Below, one piece after another: positions 48 to 39,120 of a stretch of 39,120 nucleotides of DNA. The notes beneath the pieces were generated by a model that made no database searches, was not told the DNA's origin, and saw only the letters and a program-made list of their open reading frames with translations. This stretch comes from Candidatus Nanopelagicales bacterium (GTDB lineage Bacteria > Actinomycetota > Actinomycetes > S36-B12 > GCA-2699445): assembly GCA_030700225.1 (NCBI GenBank), contig JAUYJT010000061.1, positions 1 through 39,120 of the forward strand, read 5' to 3'. Both the position numbers and the translations under genes were made by a program. How positions within the stretch are numbered: the stretch's first letter is position 1; each line of letters opens with the position of its first letter.

Positions 48-128
48 CCCGTGGGAGCCGGATGACAGGAGACCGTCACGTCCGGTTCTGCGAGAGCCGG
101 GGGGTGCAACTCCCCCCGGCTACTCACC
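1..128 (+). mobile_element. 3' end of a group II intron (domains V and VI)
   Basis: Bases 55-88 form a canonical 34-nt domain V. An 8-bp lower helix pairs 55-62 with 81-88 and includes the catalytic AGC triad with its G-U wobble. A 2-nt bulge lies on the 3' side, and the upper helix is capped by a GAGA tetraloop. Bases 92-125 form domain VI: GAG (92-94) pairs with CUC (123-125), AGCCGGGGGG (95-104) pairs with the C-rich strand 112-121, and A122 is left bulged as the branch-point adenosine. The 3' splice site should lie 5-7 nt further on, near 127-129. The intron runs in the same direction as the downstream genes. Its 5' end and insertion target are outside the window, so I cannot say whether it interrupts a gene or sits behind a terminator. 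Confidence 0.92.
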
Positions 129-2446: not shown

Positions 2447-3427
2447 ATGCGCAGCGCAGCCCGATCGCCGCGCCCGCACGAGCCAGTGATGCCGGAACGG
2501 ATCGTGGAACTGCTGACTCCGGCCTTGGGTGCCGGAGATGTGTTCGTCGACGCCACCCTTGGGCTCGGCGGTCACAGCGCGGAGATACTGCGCGAGCGGC
2601 CTAGCACTTGGGTCATAGGGATCGACCTAGACAGTCAGGCGCTTGCCGCGGCTGGCGAATTCATCGGGACGGCGTCACATCTGGATCTCGTGCATTCCAG
2701 GTTCGACGCCCTGCGCGAGATCCTCAGTGACCTTGATGCTGGAGCACCGTCAGCGGTGCTATTCGACCTCGGCGTGTCAAGCCTTCAGTTGGACAGCGAC
2801 GAGCGGGGGTTCGCCTATTCTCGTGACACAAGCCTGGATATGCGCATGGACTCAGAAGGTTCTATGAGCGCGGCGGATGTTGTGAATAGCTACAGCACAG
2901 GGGAGTTGGCGAGGGTGTTCTTCCAGTACGGAGAGGAACGCCACGCACGGAGAATCGCGACCGCTATCGCACGGCGCAGAGACGAGCACGCGATCCAGAC
3001 ATCCGGTGAGTTGACCGACGTGATTTGGCAGGCTCTCCCGGCCGCGGCGCGGCGCAAGGGCGGACATCCCGCCAAGCGCGTATTCCAGGCGCTGCGCATT
3101 GAGGTGAACGAGGAACTGATCGCGCTGCGCGCCGGGCTGGCTGCCGCTCTGGCAGTAGTCAGAGTCGGGGGGCGTGTCGCGGTGTTGTCCTACCACTCGC
3201 TGGAAGACAGGATCGTCAAACGAGCGTTCGCGGCGGGGATCAAGCCGGCAGTGTTGCCTGGCCTGCCGGTGATACCGCAGGAGTCTCAACCATGGCTTGA
3301 GGCGCTGACTCGTGGAGCTGAGCGGCCGAGCCAGACCGAAGTCGCCAGAAACCCGAGAGCTGCCTCGGCGCGTCTACGGGCCGTTGTAAAGATTCGGGAG
3401 ACCATCGGAGTGGAGGTGGGCGCATGA
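2447..3427 (+). CDS. rsmH: 16S rRNA (cytosine(1402)-N4)-methyltransferase RsmH (MraW)
   Basis: A 326-aa RsmH that methylates N4 of C1402 in the ribosomal P site using SAM. Family hallmarks are HEPVM near residue 11, the SAM motif VDATLGLGGHS, the FDLGVSSLQLD block, the FAYSRDTSLDMRMD segment, the AKRVFQALRIEVN segment and the C-terminal VLSYHSLEDRIVK. Length is within the normal range. It starts at ATG 2447 behind GAGAGGGTGA, and its stop overlaps the ftsL-like ATG as ATGA (3424-3427), implying translational coupling. mraZ-rsmH is the conserved opening of bacterial dcw clusters. Confidence 0.97.
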   Translation: MRSAARSPRPHEPVMPERIVELLTPALGAGDVFVDATLGLGGHSAEILRERPSTWVIGIDLDSQALAAAGEFIGTASHLDLVHSRFDALREILSDLDAGAPSAVLFDLGVSSLQLDSDERGFAYSRDTSLDMRMDSEGSMSAADVVNSYSTGELARVFFQYGEERHARRIATAIARRRDEHAIQTSGELTDVIWQALPAAARRKGGHPAKRVFQALRIEVNEELIALRAGLAAALAVVRVGGRVAVLSYHSLEDRIVKRAFAAGIKPAVLPGLPVIPQESQPWLEALTRGAERPSQTEVARNPRAASARLRAVVKIRETIGVEVGA

Positions 3428-4071
3428 GTACTCTGTTGCGACCCCGCCTTGTCTCTAGCCCGGAAGCTGGGCAGACTGACGCGGACGACTCGCCTCGGTC
3501 GCATCGGTCGCACAGACGGCGGGCAAACCGGCCGCGGAGTCGGCGCGTTGGGTCATATGAGGGAACGCCACGCGGATCAATGGGCACGGTGTCATTCGTG
3601 CTTCTGGTCGCCGCGATCCTGTCCGGAGGACTGATCGCGCTGCTGGTAATCAATAACTCTCTGGCACAAGGCTCCTTCGATCAGGCGAGATTGAGGGCGG
3701 AGAGCACTCGGCTGTTCGAACAGGAACAGGCCATGCGCCAGGAAGTTGAAAGACTGTCATCGCCGGGGGATCTGTCGAAGCGGGCCAAAGCGCTCGGCCT
3801 GGTTCCGGCTGCCACGATCGCATACCTGGACGTGGCGTCAGGCAGGATCTTGGGAGTGCCGCTCGCGGCCGGGGTCGCAGCGACCGCGCAGACCCAAGAA
3901 GACACAGTTCCCGCCCAAGACGCACCAGAGGCCGCGCCAGGCTCACTTGACCCGGCCATCGATTCCGCGACGACAGATTCCAGCGTGGAACCAGAATCGG
4001 GTAGCGGCGACGGCGCGACTATCTCCGGTGGAACCGCCTACGACCGGGCCGTAGTGAGCGGTGGAGGGTGA
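3424..4071 (+). CDS. ftsL: FtsL-like septum formation protein
   Basis: A 215-aa bitopic membrane protein. A basic, Arg-rich cytoplasmic region (to about residue 52) is followed by one transmembrane helix (about 56-78, VSFVLLVAAILSGGLIALLV) and a short periplasmic-side coiled coil (about 85-120, with RLRAESTRLFEQEQAMRQEVERL). A low-complexity acidic/Ala/Ser/Thr tail completes it. This topology and its position between rsmH and the division transpeptidase fit FtsL, which with a FtsB/DivIC partner and FtsQ activates FtsW-FtsI. Sequence identity in this family is low, so identification rests on topology and synteny. The long cytoplasmic head and tail are common in actinobacteria. It overlaps both neighbours (ATGA before, TGATG after). 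Confidence 0.82.
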   Translation: MSTLLRPRLVSSPEAGQTDADDSPRSHRSHRRRANRPRSRRVGSYEGTPRGSMGTVSFVLLVAAILSGGLIALLVINNSLAQGSFDQARLRAESTRLFEQEQAMRQEVERLSSPGDLSKRAKALGLVPAATIAYLDVASGRILGVPLAAGVAATAQTQEDTVPAQDAPEAAPGSLDPAIDSATTDSSVEPESGSGDGATISGGTAYDRAVVSGGG

Positions 4072-29387: not shown

Positions 29388-29770
29388 GATGAGCCAGCCG
29401 GGCAGTCGCGGCGCCTTAAACGTGGCGTCGAGGAAAGTCCGGACTCCACAGGGAAGGGTGGTGGGTAACACCCACCCGGGGTGACCCGCGGGACAGTGCC
29501 ACAGAAATCAAACCGCCGGCCGTTAGGCCGGTAAGGGTGAAACGGTGGTGTAAGAGACCACCAGCGGCTGGGGTGACTCAGTCGGCTAGGTAAACCCCAC
29601 CCGGAGCAAGGCCAAGAGGAAAGACCGAGAGGTCTGACTGCGCGAACGATGAGGGCGTCCCGTCCGAGTTCGCGGGTGGGCCGCATCAGGTTTCCGGTAA
29701 CGGAGGCCGCAGATGGATGGCTGCCGTCGGCTTCGGTCGGCACAGGATCCGGCTTATAGGCTGGCTCATC
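29388..29770 (+). ncRNA. rnpB: RNase P RNA (M1 RNA), bacterial type A
   Basis: The catalytic RNA of RNase P, which matures tRNA 5' ends. The outer helix P1 is formed by GATGAGCCAGCC (29388-29399) and its exact complement GGCTGGCTCATC (29759-29770). Conserved core elements are present in order: GAGGAAAGTCCGGA (29430-29443), ACAGAAATCAAACCGCC (about 29501-29517), GGTAAGGGTGAAACGG, the GAGGAAAGACCGAGAGG-like region, the TTTCCGGTAACGGAGGCCG segment, and CTTATAGG (29753-29760) before the 3' P1 strand. The 383-nt length is normal for actinobacteria. A TATCCT at 29375-29380 is a plausible -10 close to the 5' end. Confidence 0.95.
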
Positions 29771-29803
29771 CCCCAAACACGCTCTGACTAGGTGTGATGG
29801 GGG
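29770..29803 (+). terminator. possible hairpin terminator after rnpB
   Basis: CCCCC and ACAC (29770-29780) can pair with GTGT and GGGGG (29792-29803) around an 11-nt loop with a small internal loop. No T-run follows, so termination would have to be of the GC-rich actinobacterial kind. Weak call. Confidence 0.3.
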
Positions 29804-29861
29804 CCAGATCTGCGACGATGTCATCATCAACTACCGTGAGCCGATGGCGATGGGAGAGCGA

Positions 29862-30515
29862 ATGTCATATCGAGTAGTTCGCAACGCTGCTGTGTCAGCT
29901 GCCATAGCCGTGGCCCTGCTGATCCCAGCTGGAGCGATCGCTCAGGCCGCTGATGCATCCGGTTGCTCGGGTGAGGTGGTCTCCTCCGGCGCTGATCGGG
30001 GAGTAATCGACACGGTCACCCTGCCTGGCCCCGGCGGAACGAAGGACGACCCGTTCCGAGTGGATTCCAGTGGTTCGGTCGCTTGGAAGGGTAAGACCGC
30101 GAGCGTGATCACCGGCGGATCCTGGTCGGTGACCATCATGGGGATACCGTTCCGCAGCGGCACGTTTGACAACGAGGCCGGTGACGACAGCTCCAGCGGT
30201 GTGCAGGACTTGTCCGTGCTCCCAGCTCCTGTGAAGTGGTTCCTGATGGGTTCCGCACGGATTCCGGTTTCGGGCACCGTGAGCGGATCTGGCGGCACTT
30301 GCACCGCCAGCATGTACATCTCCGGATCAGGTTCTGCGACATTCTCGCCGCTGTTCCTGGCGGGTATCACGATGGCGCTCCTCGGCTTCCTCGGGCTTGT
30401 GGCGATGTTCGCCGGGACGAAGGTCGTTGGCATCGCAGCGGCTCCAGCCTCGCCGCCCCCGCCTCCCCCGCCGCCCCCGCCTCCGCCGCCGCCCGGACCT
30501 GGAGCAGTCGCATGA
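29862..30515 (+). CDS. secreted, C-terminally anchored protein with polyproline tail (unknown function)
   Basis: A 217-aa protein I do not recognise. A signal peptide (residues 1-30, basic start, hydrophobic core, AQA-A cleavage region) precedes an extracytoplasmic domain of about 130 residues rich in Gly, Ser and Val. That domain has two or three cysteines (Cys35 and one near residue 147) that could form a disulfide. A transmembrane helix (about 165-190) leads to a C-terminal cytoplasmic tail with 14 consecutive prolines. ATG 29862 is used because GGGAGAG lies 5 bases upstream; ATG 29844 is possible. The stop overlaps the next small membrane gene as ATGA. Polyproline synthesis should require EF-P. 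Confidence 0.75.
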   Translation: MSYRVVRNAAVSAAIAVALLIPAGAIAQAADASGCSGEVVSSGADRGVIDTVTLPGPGGTKDDPFRVDSSGSVAWKGKTASVITGGSWSVTIMGIPFRSGTFDNEAGDDSSSGVQDLSVLPAPVKWFLMGSARIPVSGTVSGSGGTCTASMYISGSGSATFSPLFLAGITMALLGFLGLVAMFAGTKVVGIAAAPASPPPPPPPPPPPPPPGPGAVA

Positions 30516-30730
30516 ACACGAAAACTCGACGCCGCCCAATCCTGGGCTTCTTCTCCGGGCTCGTATTCGCGATCGGTATCTCGCTGCTGCTGTTCGTCTA
30601 CGGCGTGCTTCCGATGACTGTGGTGTGGCTTGGCTTCGTCGCGTTAGCGGGTGCCGTCATCGGTGTCGTGCTGGCATACATCGCACCGGCCAGGGAGCCC
30701 GCGGACGGCGCGAGCACAGAATCCGCCTAG
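30512..30730 (+). CDS. small two-helix membrane protein (unknown function)
   Basis: A 72-aa protein with a basic N-terminus (MNTKTRRRP), two hydrophobic helices (about residues 10-30 and 36-58) and a short polar C-terminus. The ATG overlaps the stop of the polyproline protein, so the two are probably co-translated and may interact in the membrane. Its final codons overlap by 4 bases the stop of the convergent glycosyltransferase gene. No family recognised. Confidence 0.7.
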   Translation: MNTKTRRRPILGFFSGLVFAIGISLLLFVYGVLPMTVVWLGFVALAGAVIGVVLAYIAPAREPADGASTESA

Positions 30731-32073
30731 GGCGCCTGGATGTCGGCCGTCCGTGCCAACTTTCGGACCCGGCGGCGTGACTTCAGGTAGAGCCAGGGGC
30801 CTGCCACGAAGCCTCTACGTTCGGCCCTGACCAACTCCCTGGGGTACTCGTTCGTGCGAGATTGGTTCTTCTCCGAGTTGAGCGAGAACATACGCCGAAT
30901 GCCCCGGGGAACCACGCGCAGCAGACGCAGCTTGGCGCCGCGCAGGTGTAGGAACTCGCGGAACAGGTAGGCCGACAGGCCTGAGCCATACGCGGACATC
31001 TGCTGGCTCAGTGCGTCTACGCTCTGCCGGTGGAAGTGGCGCACCATGGCTCGCGGCTCGTAGACGATCGTTCCTCCGCTGGCGATCACTCTCAGGAACA
31101 TGTCGAGGTCCTCGCCGCCGCCAGCCGGAGTGCCAGCGCCGAGAGCCTCATCGAATCCGCCGAGTGCCCGCAGAGCCTCGGTCCGAAACGCCATGCTATT
31201 GCCGCTACCGAACAGGCCAGCCGAGAACGGGAACAGTCCGCCTCCGTCGCCTTGGGGCCCGAGTCTCCAAACGCTTGAGTCGGTCGTTGCGGTGCTCCAG
31301 ACCGTGCGCTTGTACCCCTTGGTGAATCCTGAGCCCTCCTCGAAGAGTTGCTCAGCCTCCGACAGCAGCGAGCCAGGCAAGACCAGTCCCGTCACAGAGG
31401 TGACTCCCAGGTCCTCGCTGAACGTGGCCGCCGTCGAGCGGAGCCAGCCCAGGTCCACGATGGCATCGTCGTCCGTGTACGCGATGAGATCGACGTCGGC
31501 TGCGAGCGCGGACCACAGTGCTGCGTTACGCGCGAACGACAGCCCAACCCGATGCGCAGGAAGCAGGAGGAGCCGGGTGTCGGCGATCTCGGCCACTACT
31601 CGGGCAGCGGCGCCCGACGAGGGCGCGTTGTCCACTACGACGACCGAGAAGTCGCCGACGTAGTCCTGTGCCAAGAGCGCACGGATGCTGGCGGGCAGCA
31701 TCGGATGCTGTCCCAGAGTGCATACCACGACGATTGCGCTTGGGGCTGGGCCTACGATATCCAGCCTGCGCGCGCACGCGCTGATCGGCGCCCGGCATGC
31801 AGTCACGAGGTCGTCCGCACACTCGATTTCGTCCGCCCTCACGTGCTCGGCGATCTCATCGCCAAACATCCCGCAGGCATCCTCACGCCAGGCGTCCGGT
31901 CCAGCGGGGACGCGATCTGGCTCGACAAGTAGCCCGCCCAGCGGCTCGGAATGAAGCCGAACGGTCAGGTGTAGTCCAGCGCCGACCGGGACACCATGAG
32001 GTTGGCTTGGATTCGACAGCTCCAGGTCTGCACAGAGCAAGGGCCTAAATCCCGCACCGGCTGAAGTAGTCAT
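30727..32073 (-). CDS. GT2-family glycosyltransferase with N-terminal extension
   Basis: A 448-aa protein. Residues about 1-110 are an extension I do not recognise (includes PLLCADLELSNPSQPHG). The GT-A domain begins at about 113 (SAIVVVCTLGQHPMLPASI). The nucleotide-sugar/metal motif is DDD at 201-203, and the acceptor-side acidic motif GGGEDLDMFLRV and the HFHR segment are typical of family 2. The C-terminus is basic and may associate with the membrane. No membrane helices are evident. GAGGAG lies upstream of ATG 32073. It is divergent from the flippase gene across a 93-base gap. Sugar specificity cannot be predicted; a role in exopolysaccharide assembly is inferred from its neighbours. Confidence 0.85.
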   Translation of the reverse strand: MTTSAGAGFRPLLCADLELSNPSQPHGVPVGAGLHLTVRLHSEPLGGLLVEPDRVPAGPDAWREDACGMFGDEIAEHVRADEIECADDLVTACRAPISACARRLDIVGPAPSAIVVVCTLGQHPMLPASIRALLAQDYVGDFSVVVVDNAPSSGAAARVVAEIADTRLLLLPAHRVGLSFARNAALWSALAADVDLIAYTDDDAIVDLGWLRSTAATFSEDLGVTSVTGLVLPGSLLSEAEQLFEEGSGFTKGYKRTVWSTATTDSSVWRLGPQGDGGGLFPFSAGLFGSGNSMAFRTEALRALGGFDEALGAGTPAGGGEDLDMFLRVIASGGTIVYEPRAMVRHFHRQSVDALSQQMSAYGSGLSAYLFREFLHLRGAKLRLLRVVPRGIRRMFSLNSEKNQSRTNEYPRELVRAERRGFVAGPWLYLKSRRRVRKLARTADIQAP

Positions 32074-32166
32074 TCCCGAACTCCTCGCTGAACGCAGCCT
32101 GCTACGAACCCAGTTGACTAGTATCTTGGCCCGCCGGGATGCCGCTCGCGGTGCCAGGATACGACC
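32074..32166. promoter_or_regulatory. divergent promoter region between GT2 and flippase genes
   Basis: The 93-base gap contains TAGTAT at 32120-32125, a fair -10 for the flippase gene with a roughly 35-nt leader. The palindrome ACTAGT (32118-32123) could support promoters on both strands. -35 elements are poor. Low-certainty assignment. Confidence 0.3.
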
Positions 32167-33462
32167 ATGCAGCAGGAAGCCAGACCGCTAATGCTGGTCA
32201 ACGCTGCGAGCCTGGCATCGGCGACCATTCTGACTTCCGGGCTGGGCGTTGTGTTCTGGGCACTCGCGGCGCGGCTCTATGATCCGGCCGGGATTGGGCT
32301 AGCGAATGCTCAGATCTCGTCCGCGACGCTGGTCGCGACCTTCGCTTCGCTGAACCTGGGCAGCATGCTGCTGCTCTACCTTCCCCGGGCTGGCCGTCAC
32401 ACCCGCTGGATACTGGTTCGTGCCCATGTCGTCGTCATCGCACTGAGCTTCGTAGCGGGCGCACTGTTCGTGGTGCTGGGACTCGGCGAGGACTACCTGT
32501 CCGATCCAGTGTCGATCGCGGTCTTCATCGTCGCGGTCCCGTCGCTCGCGATCTTCATGGAGCAGGCGGCGATCCTTCTGGCGATGGGGGCGGGCCCTGC
32601 CGTCACCGTCGAGAACGCTGTCTTCGCGATCGCCAAGATGGCCCTGCTGCCCGTATTCGCGGGCCTGGCTTTGGCCAGTGGGATCTTCGCCTCGTGGATT
32701 GTTCCGAATGTCCTGGTCGTGGTCGCCGTCGCGTATTTCACATTTGGCAAGCTGGTTCCGCGCCAGGAGCGGGCGGGTGAGAGCATCGAGCTTCCGCCCA
32801 GGCGGCATCTCTGGCCGCAGATGATCAAGCTCTACCTGAGTTACGTCGCTAGTCAGCTGACGGTCCTGGCCATTCCGCTGGTCATCATCTCCACACTGGG
32901 TGCGCAGCAGAACGGCTACCTGACGATGGCGTGGTTGATCGGGGTCGCGTTCGGCGCCCTCATCGTCAACATCACACAGTCCTTCAGCCAGGACGTTCGC
33001 AAGGGCCATGCGATCACGATGGTGGCCCTGAAGCGTCTGGCGGTGATGCTCGGCGTGATAGGAATCGGCGGAGGGGCGATCACGGTGATCGCCGCCCCAC
33101 TGATCCTCCACATTATGGCGCCCGGCTACGCATCGGCCAGCACCGGCGTGCTGCGTCTGATCGGTATCGCCGTGCCGCTTCAGGCGATCTGGTTGGCCAT
33201 GGCGGCGTTCCTGTGGTTGGAGGACCGAATCGGCTGGTTGGCGATCGGCAGTGGAGCGATCGCGGCTATCGCCATGGGCTGCACATTCGTGTTGGCTCCG
33301 GTGCTTGGAATAGCGTCGGCCGGCGTGGGCAGTCTGGCTGGCTTCGGCTCTCTGGCGCTGGTGAGCATAGTGCCGCTGATATGCAGAGTTCGGCGCGTGA
33401 AGGCAGGTCACGGCGACGACTGGGTCTGGACTGGTGACCGTCCGCCTACGCCCTCATCCTGA
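32167..33462 (+). CDS. polysaccharide flippase (Wzx/MOP-like membrane protein)
   Basis: A 431-aa polytopic protein with about 12 hydrophobic helices, typical of the multidrug/oligosaccharidyl-lipid/polysaccharide (MOP) exporter superfamily. An N-terminal ASLASATILTSGLGVVFWALAARLYDP segment (helix 1 followed by RLYDPAGIG; quoted in part here: FWALAARLYDP) matches the start of Wzx-like lipid-linked oligosaccharide flippases. It probably moves an undecaprenyl-linked glycan across the membrane. An AGGA precedes ATG 32167. The 3' end overlaps the convergent ATP-grasp gene by 17 bases. A teichoic or teichuronic acid flippase is an alternative; MurJ is less likely because MurJ proteins have about 14 helices and different flanking genes. 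Confidence 0.82.
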   Translation: MQQEARPLMLVNAASLASATILTSGLGVVFWALAARLYDPAGIGLANAQISSATLVATFASLNLGSMLLLYLPRAGRHTRWILVRAHVVVIALSFVAGALFVVLGLGEDYLSDPVSIAVFIVAVPSLAIFMEQAAILLAMGAGPAVTVENAVFAIAKMALLPVFAGLALASGIFASWIVPNVLVVVAVAYFTFGKLVPRQERAGESIELPPRRHLWPQMIKLYLSYVASQLTVLAIPLVIISTLGAQQNGYLTMAWLIGVAFGALIVNITQSFSQDVRKGHAITMVALKRLAVMLGVIGIGGGAITVIAAPLILHIMAPGYASASTGVLRLIGIAVPLQAIWLAMAAFLWLEDRIGWLAIGSGAIAAIAMGCTFVLAPVLGIASAGVGSLAGFGSLALVSIVPLICRVRRVKAGHGDDWVWTGDRPPTPSS

Positions 33463-34594
33463 GCCGCGCCCACTCCTGCGCTGTCGCCAACTCCACTTTC
33501 GCTCGTGAAACCGACGCCCAGCGGTTGCCGAGCCACCCGCGTCTGTACTCGATGATCTCGAGCGACTGCCGTCGGCGCAGCAACAGCGCTGACCTGGACG
33601 GCGAACAGGGAAAAGGGAATTGCAGCACTCGGTGGTACTCGCCATGGCGCACCTGGGCGGGCACCGGGCGCGGCCCCATGTCCAGGATGTGGAGGTACGC
33701 GCCGACGAAGTCCACGCCACAGGCCTGCAAAGCGGGCCAGGACCCGAACGCGCGGGCGTTCAGATCGATCAAGTAGGGGTTGCCGCGGTCGTCGATCACC
33801 CAATCGGCATTGAAGAAGCCTGTGTAGCCAATCTGTTCGACCAGTCGCCGCGTTAGACCCTCGATGCTGGGGTGAGACGTCACAGCCGCCAGAAGCGGCG
33901 GCCCTTTGGGATCGGTTGGCTCTGGATGTGAGAGGTAGGCCGCGGAGACGATCAAGTCTCCTTCCCGGGCGACCCCACCGGACTTGACCAGGCCCGTGCC
34001 GTGGAACGCCTGGACGAAAGGCGTGTCGCCCGACAAGGACGTCAGGTCATCCCAAGCGCGCGCGAGCTGATCAGCGTCTTCCGCGACACGCACTGCGGTG
34101 CCCGCGAATCCGGTCCTAGCCTTCACCACGACGGGGAAGGACCGTGCCGTCGGCCGGTCCCAAACTCGGGGAGTGGGAATGCCGAATCTCGCGACTGTCT
34201 CAGCCATCACCCACTTGTCGTACAAGACGGCGGGGTCGATCTGGCTTCCCACCCGTCGACCCAGAGCGGCAACCGGATTCGGCGCCGAGGCCACCGCTCG
34301 CGCCAGATCATCATGCGCTTGAACATCGACCACGTCGGTCCCCACTAGCGCGGGAAGATCAGCGTCCGGAATCGTTGCTGCCTGCCCCGGACGAGATCCC
34401 GGCACCACGAGTCTGCGCGGTCGGCCGTAGAGAGGCACGTCGAGTTGTTGCTGTGCGCGCAGGCGGGCCCCGCCCGGGCGGGCGGTCACGTGGCGCACGG
34501 CGAAGCCACGCATACGCAGGACTCCTGCCAAAGCGGAGAACGCTTCCCACGTGTGTCCGTCGACGAACAGAACTGCGGGCTTCTCGCGCGACAT
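33446..34594 (-). CDS. ATP-grasp ligase-like protein
   Basis: A 382-aa protein with an ATP-grasp fold of the carbamoyl-phosphate-synthase-like kind. An N-terminal pre-ATP-grasp region (about 1-120) is followed by YDKWVMAETVARFGIPTPRVWD, an ATP-binding lysine in VVVKAR (Lys158), GFAGTAVRV, FFNADWVID (261-269) and the metal-binding block LIDLNAR (275-281, where Asp replaces the common Glu of E-x-N-x-R). Such enzymes join a carboxylate to an amine or other nucleophile through an acyl phosphate. The substrate is unknown. GGAAGGGA lies 7 bases before ATG 34594. Its setting among glycan-assembly genes suggests modification of a sugar or lipid with an amide-linked group, which is inference. Confidence 0.82.
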   Translation of the reverse strand: MSREKPAVLFVDGHTWEAFSALAGVLRMRGFAVRHVTARPGGARLRAQQQLDVPLYGRPRRLVVPGSRPGQAATIPDADLPALVGTDVVDVQAHDDLARAVASAPNPVAALGRRVGSQIDPAVLYDKWVMAETVARFGIPTPRVWDRPTARSFPVVVKARTGFAGTAVRVAEDADQLARAWDDLTSLSGDTPFVQAFHGTGLVKSGGVAREGDLIVSAAYLSHPEPTDPKGPPLLAAVTSHPSIEGLTRRLVEQIGYTGFFNADWVIDDRGNPYLIDLNARAFGSWPALQACGVDFVGAYLHILDMGPRPVPAQVRHGEYHRVLQFPFPCSPSRSALLLRRRQSLEIIEYRRGWLGNRWASVSRAKVELATAQEWARLRMRA

Positions 34595-34687
34595 TCAGGC
34601 GGTCCCTTCCGAGTCCCGGCGCGCTCTGTCCAAACCGAAACTTCCGGTGATGAGCGCAACATCTGAGGGGTGGCGTTGTAAGGCTGT

Positions 34688-34734
34688 GCTCACCTACGCT
34701 GGTTGTGGGTGAGCCGCACGTGACTCATCGTAGG
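34688..34734 (+). promoter_or_regulatory. competing inverted repeats upstream of the GT2-GH16 unit
   Basis: GCTCACC (34688-34694) can pair with GGTGAGC (34708-34714). CCTACG (34693-34698) can pair with CGTAGG (34729-34734). The two helices share bases 34693-34694 and exclude each other. They lie in the 180-base divergent gap between the ATP-grasp and GT2 genes and could be a leader switch or operator. No known riboswitch motif was recognised. Confidence 0.3.
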
Positions 34735-34774
34735 CGGATCGCCCGATCGCTGACGATCGAACTGGAGAAGTGAG

Positions 34775-35677
34775 ATGTTCGGAAAACGCAAATCTGCCAG
34801 GCGTCGACGCGGCGAACCTGGACAGGATGGTGACACCGTGTCCGCACTGCCGAAGTACGAGCGCCGGCGTCCGGCGCGCGTAAGGCGGCCCTCCAATCCG
34901 CGCGTAAGTGTGATCGTGCCAGCGATGAACGAGGCCGCCAACATCCCCACCGTCTTGCCCGCCCTTGCTGACTATCACGAAGTGATTCTGGTCGACGGCC
35001 ACTCGACCGACGGCACTGTCGAAGCTGCGCGCCTGGCTCTGCCAAGCGTTCGTGTCATCGAACAGACCCGCACCGGCAAGGGAAACGCCATGGCTTGCGG
35101 ATTCGCGGTGGCAACTGGCGAGGTGATCGTGATGTTCGATGCCGATGGCTCCGCCGATCCCGCTGAGATTCCATGTTTCGTTCAGGCGTTGGTGGATGGG
35201 GCGGACTTGGCTAAGGGAAGCCGCTTCCTGGACGGCGGCGGCAGTGAAGACATCACACGCTTCCGCCGGTTGGGTAACTCAGGCCTGAACGCTCTCGCGA
35301 ATGTGCTGATAGGCAGGCACATGACCGACCTTTGCTACGGCTACAACGCGTTCTGGGCTGATCAGCTGTACCTGATCGACCTGCCCGATACGAACGCCGA
35401 GACCGACGAACCAATGCTGCCCGGCGACGGCTTCGAGATCGAGTCCCTAATCATCGGCCGGTTCGCCCTGTCTTCGGCGAACATCACGGAAGTTCCAAGC
35501 TTCGAGCGTGTACGTCACTACGGCACATCCAACCTCAACTCGGTTCGCGATGGCGTCAGGGTTCTGCGGACGATCCTCGAGGACAGGATGTACGCGAGGC
35601 GCATCCGCAGGCTCGCGCACCGCAGGCAGTCGCAGAACCGTCCGGCCCCAGCCATTCCGGGCTGGGTCAGAAGCTGA
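34775..35677 (+). CDS. GT2-family glycosyltransferase (DPM1/polyprenyl-phosphate type)
   Basis: A 300-aa protein. A very basic N-terminus (about 1-42) precedes a GT-A domain starting VSVIVPAMNEAANIPTVLPAL. DGHSTDGT (74-81) binds the nucleotide, and the metal motif is DAD (122-124) in FDADGSADP. KGSRFLDGGGSEDITRFRRLGN and DLCYGYNAFW follow the dolichyl-phosphate-mannose-synthase-like pattern. No membrane helices are seen, so it is a cytoplasmic or peripheral enzyme that may transfer a sugar to undecaprenyl phosphate. ATG 34775 follows GGAGAAG. The GH16 gene begins 15 bases downstream, forming a two-gene unit. Confidence 0.87.
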   Translation: MFGKRKSARRRRGEPGQDGDTVSALPKYERRRPARVRRPSNPRVSVIVPAMNEAANIPTVLPALADYHEVILVDGHSTDGTVEAARLALPSVRVIEQTRTGKGNAMACGFAVATGEVIVMFDADGSADPAEIPCFVQALVDGADLAKGSRFLDGGGSEDITRFRRLGNSGLNALANVLIGRHMTDLCYGYNAFWADQLYLIDLPDTNAETDEPMLPGDGFEIESLIIGRFALSSANITEVPSFERVRHYGTSNLNSVRDGVRVLRTILEDRMYARRIRRLAHRRQSQNRPAPAIPGWVRS

Positions 35678-35680
35678 ACG

Positions 35681-35699
35681 CCGCCACTCAAGATGGCGG
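35681..35699 (+). promoter_or_regulatory. hairpin enclosing the GH16 start codon
   Basis: CCGCCA (35681-35686) pairs perfectly with TGGCGG (35694-35699) around a 7-nt loop, and the ATG (35693-35695) sits at the loop/stem border. Ribosomes finishing the upstream gene 15 bases earlier would open it. Possible translational-coupling device; GC-rich chance pairing is not excluded. Confidence 0.35.
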
Positions 35700-36577
35700 A
35701 AGATCGAAGGGTCGCCGACACCGGCAGTAGAAAGACCGGGTTGCCCAGATCGTGGGCGATTCTGCTTGTCCTGACAGCGGTTCTGATCTTGGCCGGTGGC
35801 TTCCAGTCTGTGGGAGTGATCAACCTCGCTGGGGTGGCGGGACCGGTATCCGGTGGTGGCAAGGTCTCCAGCGAGACGACCGGCTGGACACCCATCTACC
35901 GGGAGGACTTCGATACTCCCGCGCCGCTGGGCTCGTTCCTGGTCACCTACGGATCCACCTTTGGCGCGTACCCGTATCCCTGGGCTGACACCAGCCGGAG
36001 CCTGCGCTCCGACCCCGGGTATTACCACCCTGGGAAGACCCTGTCCGTAGCTGACGGTGTCATGGATGCCTGGTTGCACTATGACGCTGAGCTCGGCCGT
36101 GTGCTGGTCGCGGCCCCGTACCCGAAGTTACCCAAGATGAGGTATGGACGCTTCGCGCTGAGGCTGCGTGCGCCAGCCGTTCACGGGTACCGAATCGCAC
36201 CGATGCTCTGGCCGGACTCCGATCGTTATCCCACCGACGGCGAGATCAACATGCCAGAAGGAGGGCTGGCGCGCCGCGAGTTCGTCGCCTACGCTCACTA
36301 CGCCCAGCCGACTGGGACTCCAGGGCCGACGCAGGACATCATCCCGACTGGCGTGAATGGTGAGGATTGGCACGTCTACGAGATCGCCTGGTCGCCGGGC
36401 AAGGTGGAGTTCTTCGTCGACGGTGAGAGCATCGGGGCCAGCACTCATGCCGTACCCGACAAGCCGATGCACTGGGTGTTGCAGTTCGAAACGCTGCTGA
36501 ACACGGAGTCTCCGTCGCGCAGCGCCGAAGCTCACGTTTACGTGGACTGGGTAGAGGCTTGGAAATGGGACGGCTAG
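35693..36577 (+). CDS. membrane-anchored GH16-family protein with altered ExNxxE motif
   Basis: A 294-aa protein. Residues about 18-40 are a membrane helix acting as signal anchor; the rest lies outside the cell and has the jelly-roll signatures of glycoside hydrolase family 16 (YGRFALRLRAP, HVYEIAWSPGKVEFFVDG, MHWVLQFET). The usual catalytic E-x-D-x-x-E is here Glu184-Ile-Asn186-Met-Pro-Glu189: nucleophile and acid/base glutamates are kept, but the central aspartate is asparagine. It could be a slow hydrolase, a transglycosylase, or a binding protein for beta-glucan-like or galactan chains. No ribosome-binding site precedes ATG 35693, which lies in a small hairpin. It is probably co-expressed with the upstream GT2. 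Confidence 0.85.
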   Translation: MAEDRRVADTGSRKTGLPRSWAILLVLTAVLILAGGFQSVGVINLAGVAGPVSGGGKVSSETTGWTPIYREDFDTPAPLGSFLVTYGSTFGAYPYPWADTSRSLRSDPGYYHPGKTLSVADGVMDAWLHYDAELGRVLVAAPYPKLPKMRYGRFALRLRAPAVHGYRIAPMLWPDSDRYPTDGEINMPEGGLARREFVAYAHYAQPTGTPGPTQDIIPTGVNGEDWHVYEIAWSPGKVEFFVDGESIGASTHAVPDKPMHWVLQFETLLNTESPSRSAEAHVYVDWVEAWKWDG

Positions 36578-36606
36578 CAGTCGGCTGATAGGTCGGCGCG
36601 CTCATG

Positions 36607-36801
36607 CTAGCCGATCTCGATGAACCGGATGATGACGATCGCGCCCCAGACAAGCACGGAACAGGCAGTGGCGATGAGGAGCTGGCGTCGCTGATCCGGT
36701 CGGCCGAGTCCTCCCTCCACGGCTGCGGTGGAGGCGAAGCAAAGCGCGAGGACGGCGAATGTGATCAGGACACCGAGCGGTTCCGAGATCAGGATTGTCA
36801 T
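36607..36801 (-). CDS. small membrane protein (unknown function)
   Basis: A 64-aa protein with two hydrophobic segments (about residues 8-28 and 42-60) separated by a charged turn (GRPDQRRQ). Its ATG overlaps the stop of the 117-aa membrane gene upstream (ATGA on the minus strand), which is the main reason to accept it over a longer frame through the same DNA. No family recognised. It is the last gene of a coupled minus-strand unit and ends 29 bases from the convergent GH16 gene. Confidence 0.6.
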   Translation of the reverse strand: MTILISEPLGVLITFAVLALCFASTAAVEGGLGRPDQRRQLLIATACSVLVWGAIVIIRFIEIG

Positions 36802-37151
36802 CGCGCCGCCTCTCGCGCCGCTCCACGGCGCAGAACCCACACCGACGTCGCCCAAACGATGACCGCCTGCAGCACGAGCGTACCCAGCCCCGACGACTCG
36901 CGGGCGTAGAGAACGATCAGGCTGCACAGGATGAGGGAGGCAAGCCCGATCGAAACGGCGACGGCGATCGCGAGCGCGACCGTCCGGATGCTCACCACGA
37001 GCAGCGTCGCGAATCCGACACCGAGAAGGCTGAACAGGCCCACAACCGGCATCCTGAGCCACACGGGCGCCTGCATCACAACGAGAAGGACGGACACCGC
37101 TGCCCACATGACCAAAGCCAGCGCGGCCCTCTGCGTCGATTCCGCGCTCAT
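36798..37151 (-). CDS. four-helix integral membrane protein (unknown function)
   Basis: A 117-aa protein with about four hydrophobic helices (roughly residues 8-26, 32-52, 57-80, 88-108) and a basic C-terminus. It overlaps by 4 bases both the 626-aa membrane gene before it and the 64-aa gene after it, so all three should be translated together. I recognise no family. A role as a subunit or assembly factor for the larger membrane protein is possible but inferred only from coupling. Confidence 0.7.
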   Translation of the reverse strand: MSAESTQRAALALVMWAAVSVLLVVMQAPVWLRMPVVGLFSLLGVGFATLLVVSIRTVALAIAVAVSIGLASLILCSLIVLYARESSGLGTLVLQAVIVWATSVWVLRRGAAREAAR

Positions 37152-39028
37152 GACTGCCTCCCAGGTGTCTGTGCGCTTCCGGCTGCGGCGGCCTGGGGCG
37201 GGCCGCCCGGAGACACGGACGGTGACTTGTCACCCACACGCACGAGGATCACGCCCGATGGGTTCCGGTAGACGATCTTGTACTGGCCCGAGGAAGTCAG
37301 CATCTCGACAAACACGTTCGCGAAGTCCGACGGTAGGCCATCGTTCTCGACCCCGTATTCGACCTGTGGCCGTGAGATGACGATGTAGGTTCCGACCGGG
37401 TTGTCTCCGATGAGTTTGTTGACCTGCTTGACGTCTGTCAGAGGCCATGAATCGAGCAGGTTTGGCGCCTCGTTGTACGAGGTGATGTCACGGTAGCTAG
37501 TCGGCCCGCCGTACCCCAGCGAGGCGATCGTGCTGCCGGCCGGTGCGAGCAGCGAGAACTCCTGGTCAAGCTGAAGATCCGTGTCCGAGATCCGCTCGAA
37601 GGACTCGTTCCCCCATTTCGCGAGAAGGAAGATCGGGAATGACAGTGCGATCACAGCCACAAACGCGACCCAAGTGTAAGGGCGAGACGCGGGCGGTCCT
37701 GGCGACACCAGGGCCGCTATCAGCATGGACGCCCCGGGCAGTGAGTAGAAGAACAGTCGCAAGATGCCTTCCCCGCCATACTCCTGCGAAACGACGATGA
37801 ACGCTGGTGCCGCTGTGAGGATCAGTAGCGGCAAGCTCACGGCCTTCCCGGTGCGCCAAAGCCGGATCGCGCCCAGTCCCGCCAGACCCCACACGAGCAG
37901 AGAGAAGACAAGTCGAGCGTTGACAACCTCCAGGTGGGCGCTGCTTCCCGTGAGCCGATTCCCCACGCCGCTCTCAACGACGGCATCGGCGCGACCGATC
38001 CCCCCGAAAATCTGGTCCAAGTGTCCGCTCCAGAACGGTTCCGCGGCATAGCTGAGCCACCCGACCATCGCCACGCCGATGAAGACGACGATCGGCCATG
38101 GGCGCAACCTTCCGACCACTGCGAGCAGCGTCAGGGGCACGGCAAGGGCCGGCGGCGTCAACTGATGGGTCGCGACGAGAGCGAACGTCAGGCCGGCCAG
38201 CAAGATCAGCAGCGCCAGCCGCGTCGTGTGACTCTCGGCTGTCTCGGGTGGCTCGTGACCGCGGTCGGCGGACCGGACGAGGGAACTGAGCCACGCCAAG
38301 CCGCGCCGAGGCGTGCGGACAGCCCAGGCCTGGATTCTGATCGACCACATGTCGGGATCCCGGTGACGCAGGTACGTCAGCACGATGGCGATGAACGTCA
38401 AGTAGAGAACGAACGCGACGGACTGGGGCGAGAAGTAGTCCTGCCCAACCCAGTCGGCCATTACGAAGACGATCACGCCGATCCAGGGGGCGCGCCATCC
38501 CTTCAAGGTCGCGCGGCCAATCGCGAGCAGCGGCGCCAGGTAGGCGAGGAGCAGGATGATTGGAGCCCACTTCAGCCAGACGACCGGGCTGGACGCTCCG
38601 GTCGCGTCCGTCAGAGCCGCGGATCCGGAGAAGAATCCGGGCCAAGAGAATCGGGCATCCATTGATGGGCTGGGATGGCCAAGAGAGATGATCGATTCGG
38701 TGAAGCTCGAGTGGAGCCAGGCCACCGGGAAACGCGGTTCGCTCTCCACAAAGCTCGCGGCCCCATGAACGAGGACGGTCAGTGCGACGACGCCAGTGAC
38801 CATCACTTCCGTGCACTGCCGGTGCCACCGCAGCGAGTTGGCCAGCACGGCGAGCACGACCGCAATCGCGACGTAGTAGGCGAGGGGCAGCGCCTGGATG
38901 AGTCCGTACGGGCCAATGGCGCTCTCGTCGCTGAAGCTCAGTGCGACAATTCCCACGCCCAGTGCCGCCAGAACTGTGCCCAGCGACGCCCACTTCATGC
39001 GGGCGCTGAGGTCAGTATCCCGTTTCAA
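37148..39028 (-). CDS. large polytopic membrane protein, GT-C glycosyltransferase-like
   Basis: A 626-aa protein with about 11-12 hydrophobic helices over residues 12-475, then an extracytoplasmic C-terminal domain (about 480-605) with no hydrophobic stretch and a Pro/Ala/Gln-rich tail. The design (many helices, long first loop with HSSFTESI..., acidic residues soon after helices, terminal soluble domain) resembles GT-C glycosyltransferases and O-antigen/EPS polymerase-like proteins, but I see no diagnostic motif. The start is TTG 39028, overlapping the upstream gene's TGA, with ACGGGGA nearby; ATG 38998 (Met11) is an alternative. Its stop overlaps the next membrane gene. Confidence 0.75.
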   Translation of the reverse strand: MKRDTDLSARMKWASLGTVLAALGVGIVALSFSDESAIGPYGLIQALPLAYYVAIAVVLAVLANSLRWHRQCTEVMVTGVVALTVLVHGAASFVESEPRFPVAWLHSSFTESIISLGHPSPSMDARFSWPGFFSGSAALTDATGASSPVVWLKWAPIILLLAYLAPLLAIGRATLKGWRAPWIGVIVFVMADWVGQDYFSPQSVAFVLYLTFIAIVLTYLRHRDPDMWSIRIQAWAVRTPRRGLAWLSSLVRSADRGHEPPETAESHTTRLALLILLAGLTFALVATHQLTPPALAVPLTLLAVVGRLRPWPIVVFIGVAMVGWLSYAAEPFWSGHLDQIFGGIGRADAVVESGVGNRLTGSSAHLEVVNARLVFSLLVWGLAGLGAIRLWRTGKAVSLPLLILTAAPAFIVVSQEYGGEGILRLFFYSLPGASMLIAALVSPGPPASRPYTWVAFVAVIALSFPIFLLAKWGNESFERISDTDLQLDQEFSLLAPAGSTIASLGYGGPTSYRDITSYNEAPNLLDSWPLTDVKQVNKLIGDNPVGTYIVISRPQVEYGVENDGLPSDFANVFVEMLTSSGQYKIVYRNPSGVILVRVGDKSPSVSPGGPPQAAAAGSAQTPGRQS

Positions 39029-39120
39029 GAAGTCCCCGTCCCGGTCGGTCGGCCACCGCGGCGGTCGGCCCTCGCGTGCAGCCGCTCGAGCCGAAGCCGC
39101 TGGATCTTGCCCGCCATGTA
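39025..39120 (-). CDS. C-terminal end of an upstream gene (partial, unknown)
   Basis: The minus strand is open from the window edge to a TGA at 39027-39025, giving the last 31 residues: a basic, amphipathic stretch (GKIQRLRLERLHARADRRGG) and a Gly/Thr end. The stop overlaps the TTG start of the 626-aa membrane gene by 3 bases (TTGA), as the other genes in this unit overlap. Basic C-terminal tails like this are common on membrane-associated glycosyltransferases, but the family cannot be determined from 31 residues. Confidence 0.55.
   Translation of the reverse strand, partial: YMAGKIQRLRLERLHARADRRGGRPTGTGTS

Follow-up and report, generated by a model that had tools for sequence, protein, structure and literature searches.

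How a bacterium could assemble a surface glycan with a gene cluster that holds glycosyltransferases (GTs), a flippase and a large membrane enzyme, and no initiating phosphoglycosyltransferase (PGT), is the question raised by a locus of Candidatus Nanopelagicales bacterium (assembly GCA_030700225.1, contig JAUYJT010000061.1, here C61). The window, that is, the whole 39,120-nucleotide stretch of DNA analyzed, represents bases 1-39120 of this 108,049-bp contig, and the host genome is a 2.6-Mb, 96%-complete actinobacterial genome. An earlier note had placed a candidate undescribed exopolysaccharide assembly locus at 30727-39120. The gene content there is as it described, but these bounds enclose only part of the locus, which runs past the window end to contig position ~41,440 and there includes a third family-2 glycosyltransferase (GT2c) and a second family-16 glycoside hydrolase (GH16). 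The answer that we propose, and to which we give an even chance, is that its genes specify an Agl-like pathway for the assembly of a glycan on polyprenyl phosphate and for its export.

The core of the locus consists of five genes. On the minus strand lies the gene of a 626-aa membrane protein with about 11 hydrophobic segments (37148-39028), modeled with a GT-C_A glycosyltransferase fold and hereafter called the GT-C enzyme. It is joined on one side by GT2c, of which the 3' end occupies 39025-39120 of the window (whole gene C61:39025-40176, minus strand), and on the other by the genes of two small membrane proteins, mem117 (117 aa, four hydrophobic segments, hence 4-TM protein; 36798-37151, minus strand) and, beyond the core, mem64 (64 aa, two hydrophobic segments; 36607-36801, minus strand). 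Hydrophobic segments were counted with a 19-residue hydropathy window, not a transmembrane predictor. Each junction among the four genes GT2c, GT-C, mem117 and mem64 is a 4-base overlap (TTGA, ATGA and ATGA, respectively), a pattern as in a translationally coupled operon. The two remaining core genes lie on the plus strand and encode a predicted Wzx-like lipid-linked oligosaccharide flippase of 431 aa (32167-33462) and a second family-2 enzyme, GT2b (34775-35677). A further putative cytoplasmic GT2, GT2a, is encoded at 30727-32073 (minus strand; Glyco_tranf_2_3, PF13641, E 1.6e-16). The two GT2 enzymes, the flippase, the ATP-grasp ligase, the anchored GH16 with an ExNxxE motif and the membrane set listed in the earlier note were all found in place, by Pfam or NCBIfam matches, by fold for the flippase and by hydrophobic segments for the membrane set, and the strands of the genes bear out the divergent pairing that it had described.

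When species genomes were scanned once with the GT-C profile, 332 relatives emerged, 80 of which were analyzed as loci. Their carriers belong to the Micromonosporaceae, Thermomonosporaceae, Streptosporangiaceae, Streptomycetaceae, Pseudonocardiaceae and Acidimicrobiaceae, to Leucobacter and to the Chloroflexota, with a few metagenome-assembled genomes (MAGs) labeled Acidobacteria and Dormibacteraeota; the cluster is common to many soil and freshwater bacteria. At fixed thresholds, GT2b was present in 63, GT2c in 69, Wzx in 64 and the 4-TM protein in 74 of the 80 loci, and all five core genes were found within ~10 kb in 49. Where at least 8 kb was available on both sides (55 loci), 42 loci are complete for the five genes, which almost always share a strand. 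None of 20 control regions of 20 kb, taken from five actinomycete genomes, carried any family of the locus at the thresholds used. The recurrence of the five-gene core in 49 of the 80 loci shows that the genes are co-conserved in relatives, one of the points on which the earlier note had made its proposal depend.

Within the window's order, the GT-C enzyme was found in 6 of 99 genomes, from four families. The flippase (E ≤ 2e-43) occurred in the same six genomes, with one marginal 71-residue match elsewhere, and so did a close GH16 (E ≤ 2e-20), for which the best match in the other genomes was 2e-9. The chance of two sets of six agreeing would be ~1e-9 if the genomes were independent; they are not, but the six represent four families. 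The length and sequence of locus L058 are those of G037:C278, so that this locus is not independent of the order set.

The first step of glycan assembly is suggested by the GT2 enzymes. For GT2b (GT2 domain, E 7e-24), the best NCBIfam model is AglJ (TIGR04182, 112.5 bits, E 2.4e-32; next model 65 bits), and for GT2c it is AglG (NF041394, 159.5 bits, E 1.1e-46, residues 57-357; next model 48 bits). By counts at E ≤ 1e-20, AglJ was matched by all 30 sampled GT2b and AglG by all 29 sampled GT2c sequences, the samples consisting of the window's genome together with 29 of 63 GT2b and 28 of 64 listed GT2c. In six of six whole actinomycete genomes, each with 9 to 16 GT2b-like matches, the best genome-wide match sits in the GT-C locus; in one of the six, another copy matches just as well. 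The first two sugars on dolichol phosphate come from AglJ and AglG in Haloferax, and only then is the product flipped and transferred by AglB (PMC3871713). The Agl system of Haloferax volcanii (AglJ, AglG, AglI, AglE, flippase, AglB) resembles the present locus in having an AglJ-like primer, an AglG-like extender, a flippase and an oligosaccharyltransferase (OST) fold of the GT-C_A type in the same order, and no other NCBIfam model scores as high against GT2b and GT2c as AglJ and AglG do, respectively. It differs in that the scores here are sub-equivalog, the GT-C enzyme lies outside the STT3 sequence family, and linked hydrolases and the 4-TM protein are present in addition. On sequence scores, the relation of GT2b and GT2c to AglJ and AglG is one of resemblance, not of equivalog membership.

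The third enzyme, GT2a, has ~100 extra N-terminal residues, and its relatives are fused to GT2c or Wzx in other genomes. A broadened GT2a profile cross-matches GT2c, and its count of 69 of the 80 loci was therefore not used; a narrower profile found GT2a in 24 loci, plus fusions.

The best PDB relative of GT2b is the dolichol-phosphate-mannose (DPM) synthase of P. furiosus (5mlz), and this dolichol-phosphate-sugar-synthase-like character would also suit the main rival explanation, a three-component side-chain system (Gtr-like or GT136 pentofuranose-like). In such a system, GT2b would make a polyprenyl-phosphate monosaccharide, the MATE/Wzx-like protein would flip it and the GT-C enzyme would attach this one sugar to a polymer whose synthesis depends on genes elsewhere. 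A polyprenyl-phosphate-sugar synthase, a MOP/MATE-type flippase and a GT-C enzyme are indeed the three activities of the system described in PMC11127046, and the likeness of the present proteins to them is one of homology and fold; the GT136 system uses a MATE instead of a GtrA-type small flippase. We nevertheless consider this explanation unlikely. GT2c, whose AglG likeness is that to a second-sugar enzyme, is as conserved as GT2b (69 and 63 of the 80 loci), and the present locus differs from the Gtr and GT136 systems by having two further conserved GT2s. A separate backbone polymerase was not found in the loci with the small profiles used.

These were home-made profiles for PGT, Wzz and Wzy, the last built from one sequence, and within their reach none of the three was detected in any of the 80 loci. 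The statement in the earlier note that an initiating transferase and a chain-length regulator are missing is thus true of the window and extends to its relatives. The Wzx/Wzy pathway is alike in its Wzx flippase, several cytoplasmic GTs and secreted hydrolases, and an ordinary exopolysaccharide pathway of this kind, with initiating transferase, Wzy and Wzz encoded elsewhere in the genome and the GT-C enzyme only decorating the product, has to be considered. Outside the locus, the window's genome does encode such proteins: a PF02397 enzyme on C30, a Wzz on C15 and two with Wzy_C (C61:78997 and C30:37676). Three of the order's six carrier genomes matched PF02397 (PGT), three PF02706 (Wzz) and three PF04932 (Wzy_C); PF02397 was not found in G013, G021 and G044. 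Two of these, the congeners G013 (99% complete) and G044 (95% complete), gave no match to any of the three families, and two carriers that lack all three, together with loci in which the small profiles found no PGT, Wzz or Wzy, set the present system apart from the Wzx/Wzy pathway. Since the fusion partner of Wzx is moreover the GT-C enzyme (see below), we regard the ordinary pathway as rather more doubtful than the side-chain system. In the window's genome, a WbaP-like PGT lies with GT4, epimerase and methyltransferase genes in a separate polysaccharide cluster (L151, G000:C30).

The flippase of the window has no Pfam match of its own, and among 34 aligned relatives, five match Polysacc_synt and three MatE. 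Its structural model (pLDDT 90.4) is closest to WzxE (9g9n, Z 31.0, root-mean-square deviation 3.9 over 389 residues), followed by MurJ (Z 27.9) and MATE drug transporters (27.2 and less). Judged by this fold, the protein is a flippase of the Wzx type within the MOP superfamily, and its nearness to an oligosaccharide flippase argues against a side-chain system that would flip a monosaccharide. A second Wzx paralogue, 46% identical, is encoded in the window's genome beside a histidine kinase gene (L152 9100-10413, G000:C52).

The GT-C enzyme, like the flippase, could be placed by fold only: a PDB sequence search with both profiles gave nothing meaningful, and the 626-aa protein has no Pfam or NCBIfam match. 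A model built with an alignment of 64 sequences (pLDDT 89.2, pTM 0.90) matched 14 PDB chains in Foldseek at E ≤ 0.001, all of them GT-C enzymes. At the top of the ranking are yeast STT3 (8age, Z 22.7) and archaeal AglB (3waj, Z 22.2), each over 431-432 residues, and lower matches are ArnT (Z 18.1), AftA (16.7), PglB (16.5), AftD (14.9) and EmbB (13.6). Compared with STT3 and AglB, a GT-C_A fold with an extracytoplasmic C-terminal domain is present. Since most of the matches start near model residue 68, the first two helices seem to have been added to the fold. Enzymes of this fold use acidic residues in their first two outer loops for metal binding or catalysis. In numbering of the window protein, the invariant residues of the alignment include Ala125, Pro130, Trp193, Gln196, Asp197, Tyr198, Pro201, Gln202, His288 and Arg372 as well as Tyr417-Gly-Gly-Glu420 and Arg424, and Asp124, Arg126 and Trp129 are nearly invariant. 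From the modeled fold, we propose that the GT-C enzyme is an en-bloc transferase or polymerase acting outside the cytoplasmic membrane.

The fold leaves room for two other roles. Its matches to ArnT, AftA and AftD would agree with the addition of single sugars in a side-chain system. The closeness to STT3 and AglB, together with the resemblance of GT2b and GT2c to enzymes of archaeal N-glycosylation (PMC3871713), would agree with protein glycosylation, the GT-C enzyme being a bacterial oligosaccharyltransferase that puts the flipped glycan on secreted or S-layer-like proteins. We hold this last explanation to be improbable, more so than the two rivals above. The 64 GT-C members include no Pfam STT3 match, the secreted GH16 or GH39-like proteins and polysaccharide deacetylases linked to the loci point to a polymer, and a DPM-like archaeal GT2 can feed an exopolysaccharide instead: in Haloarcula, AepG provides dolichol-phosphate glucuronic acid for exopolysaccharide (PMC9943897).

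The small membrane partner of the GT-C enzyme, mem117, belongs to a family found in 74 of the 80 loci with an iterated profile; the first profile had missed most members as well as the fused N-termini, which the iteration recovered. We also considered mem117 as a GtrA protein and rejected this, as no GtrA match was obtained at E ≤ 1 for six mem117 relatives and the window's two small membrane proteins. The lack of GtrA is a difference from Gtr systems and a further point against the side-chain explanation. Among the 80 loci, a match to mem64 was found only in L058.

Gene fusions connect the components further. Wzx::GT-C forms one open frame (1142-1446 aa) in 19 loci. In a quick tree of the GT-C sequences, read by eye and with some open forks, these fusions fall into five separate groups among unfused relatives, namely the Streptosporangiaceae, the Streptomycetaceae, the Pseudonocardiaceae with a Frankiales MAG, Actinoallomurus with Actinomadura, and L107. 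GT2c::GT2a is one protein in 14 loci, and a GT2a::Wzx fusion is present in L074. In L050, L053, L128 and L137, the 4-TM protein makes up the N-terminal part of the GT-C protein; mem117 matches in open reading frames whose automatic start was set too early and that overlap the GT-C gene were not counted as fusions. Given these fusions, GT2c-GT2a-Wzx-GT-C-4TM probably form a chain, be it physical or functional. GT2-Wzx fusions are a further difference from the Gtr and GT136 systems, and GT2c::GT2a and GT2a::Wzx, which tie the extending GTs to the flippase, speak against a side-chain role. The window's genome itself encodes a GT2::Wzx protein on contig 65, beside a polysaccharide deacetylase (L153 4148-10103, G000:C65), and this region may be a satellite of the locus, providing the deacetylase that the window lacks. 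The two genes adjoin a BsuBI/PstI-type restriction enzyme and a DNA methylase.

The computation showed which genes are present and conserved together, how they are fused, and which folds and families they match. From this we infer, with roles assigned by homology, what each enzyme of the proposed Agl-like pathway catalyzes and in which order, as well as its lipid, its sugars and its acceptor. GT2b would transfer the first sugar from a nucleotide sugar onto polyprenyl phosphate, like AglJ in Haloferax, and with such AglJ-like priming a WbaP-type phosphoglycosyltransferase would not be needed. The AglG-like GT2c, perhaps using hexuronic acid, and GT2a would extend the product to a short oligosaccharide, which the Wzx-fold protein would flip across the membrane. 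The GT-C enzyme with its 4-TM partner would then take the flipped oligosaccharide directly from Wzx and add it to a growing chain, in the place of Wzy. A secreted or anchored GH16, or a GH39-like protein in other lineages, may trim or release the product, and deacetylases, where present, may modify it. The linked secreted hydrolases and deacetylases favor a polysaccharide over a glycoprotein as this product.

Several observations weigh against this pathway. Core genes were not found within the flanks of some of the 55 well-flanked loci: Wzx in seven (L059, L064, L084, L092, L100, L128 and L137), GT2b in three, GT2c in two and the 4-TM protein in three. In G021, the Wzx and GT-C genes lie on different contigs. 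The members scored individually are under the NCBI equivalog cut-offs (112 and 114 vs. 325 bits for AglJ, 159 vs. 440 bits for AglG), so that the sugars and the lipid cannot be read from these matches, and profiles do not fully tell GT2a from GT2c. None of the 64 GT-C relatives matches any Pfam family at E ≤ 0.001, STT3 included, and the modeled likeness to an OST fold falls short of showing en-bloc transfer, with ArnT, which transfers a single sugar, also near (Z 18.1). A PF02397 enzyme is encoded elsewhere in three of the six carrier genomes of the order, the window's genome included. In addition, each of the six has two or three PF00953 enzymes, one presumably MraY, which makes a WecA-like start on a diphosphate possible.

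The earlier note had seen the unusual part of the locus in the pairing of an ATP-grasp ligase with an altered GH16, and this did not hold. The ATP-grasp gene (33446-34594, minus strand; ATP-grasp_3, PF02655, E 6.2e-7) was rejected as a core part: its relatives occur in 9 of the 99 genomes of the order, only two of which are shared with the GT-C enzyme, the 80 loci contain two weak matches, and a scan of the genome collection found no relative. It is an accessory gene outside the conserved core. Relatives near other polysaccharide genes were found in two places, in G001 and, ~2 kb from a PGT, in G037, and the ligase may for this reason be a mobile modifier. In G001 (L009 8058-14768), the surroundings of the relative resemble an exopolysaccharide locus: they hold Wzx and GT genes, Wzz-like and O-antigen-ligase-like genes and the gene of a secreted protein similar to glycosidases, the names being given partly from sequence.

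GH16 was rejected as a key part as well, with matches in only 22 of the 80 loci and GH39-like proteins taking its place in others. The window's GH16 (35693-36577, plus strand; PF00722, E 1.7e-9) has a single N-terminal hydrophobic helix as anchor (residues 22-40), and its motif is ExNxxE (GEINMPE) instead of ExDxxE, with both glutamates kept; its nearest solved relatives are laminarinases (E ~3e-5). Among 60 sequences, 57 have ExDxxE and two, those of the window and of G037, have ExNxxE, while one row (L050:16849-17898) is an overlapping frame. Both times the ExNxxE enzyme is accompanied by a nearby canonical GH16. In the window's genome this is the secreted ExDxxE enzyme encoded beyond GT2c (C61:40228-41439, minus strand). 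In G037 (L047), the two form a convergent pair at 1563-2441 and 2451-3437, the ExNxxE enzyme following a lipobox-like signal. Frequent neighbors in the 80 loci are a polysaccharide deacetylase (50), a GH39-like protein (36), a GNAT acetyltransferase (35) and GH16 (22), and a secreted hydrolase, either GH16 or GH39-like, is present in 58. The unusual features of the locus are instead the AglJ-like and AglG-like GT2 pair, the recurring Wzx::GT-C fusion and the OST-fold GT-C enzyme at the place where a Wzy would be expected.

Among bacterial loci described so far, imp of Actinoplanes comes closest. In each of two genomes of Winogradskya, a genus close to Actinoplanes, the GT-C profile found only one gene, that of the present locus. 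According to PMC12691653 and PMC13390465, the imp cluster of Actinoplanes missouriensis is responsible for the sporangium matrix polysaccharide and, like the present locus, encodes a Wzx (ImpC), a small membrane protein with a function not known (ImpD) and a GT-C-type protein proposed as Wzy (ImpE, here compared by description only), its seven genes lacking a PGT and lying adjacent to a secreted hydrolase, GimB. It differs in its cytoplasmic enzymes, which are three GT4 and one GT2, and in the hydrolase, which is a GH5. The gene set of the present locus, for which no published description was found in open-licence PMC papers, may accordingly be called undescribed as the earlier note had it, and the core genes of the cluster are without a curated family name.

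The locus is bordered by genes of other kinds. Next on the contig after the secreted GH16 gene are a D,D-peptidase-like gene and a methionine aminopeptidase gene, both named by sequence appearance. Just upstream of the locus, an RNase P RNA (RF00010, 301.7 bits; 29390-29772, plus strand) is flanked by the genes of a zinc-ribbon-like protein and of a proline-tailed secreted protein (29844-30515, plus strand). The latter, which combines a long run of prolines with a hydrophobic segment at the C-terminus, has no Pfam or NCBIfam match and is followed by the gene of a small membrane protein (~30512-30730, plus strand). A group II intron match (RF00029, 52.7 bits) lies at the window start (53-128, plus strand).

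A broader reading, to which we give less than even odds, is that an Agl-like route, with an AglJ-like start on polyprenyl monophosphate and an OST-fold GT-C enzyme, often fused to Wzx, that polymerizes or transfers entire oligosaccharides in the place of Wzy, is widespread in Actinomycetota and Chloroflexota. If true, this would be a further route to bacterial surface polysaccharides besides the Wzx/Wzy, ABC-transporter and synthase routes, and one in which a bacterial polysaccharide is made without a phosphoglycosyltransferase, Wzy and Wzz. It would also provide a mechanism for an unnamed gene set that recurs in Actinomycetota, Chloroflexota and MAGs labeled Acidobacteria or Dormibacteraeota. 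Whether an OST-fold GT-C enzyme can act as a polymerase becomes a directly testable question, and the hand-over of a flipped lipid-linked glycan may be studied within one polypeptide, a naturally occurring Wzx::GT-C fusion.

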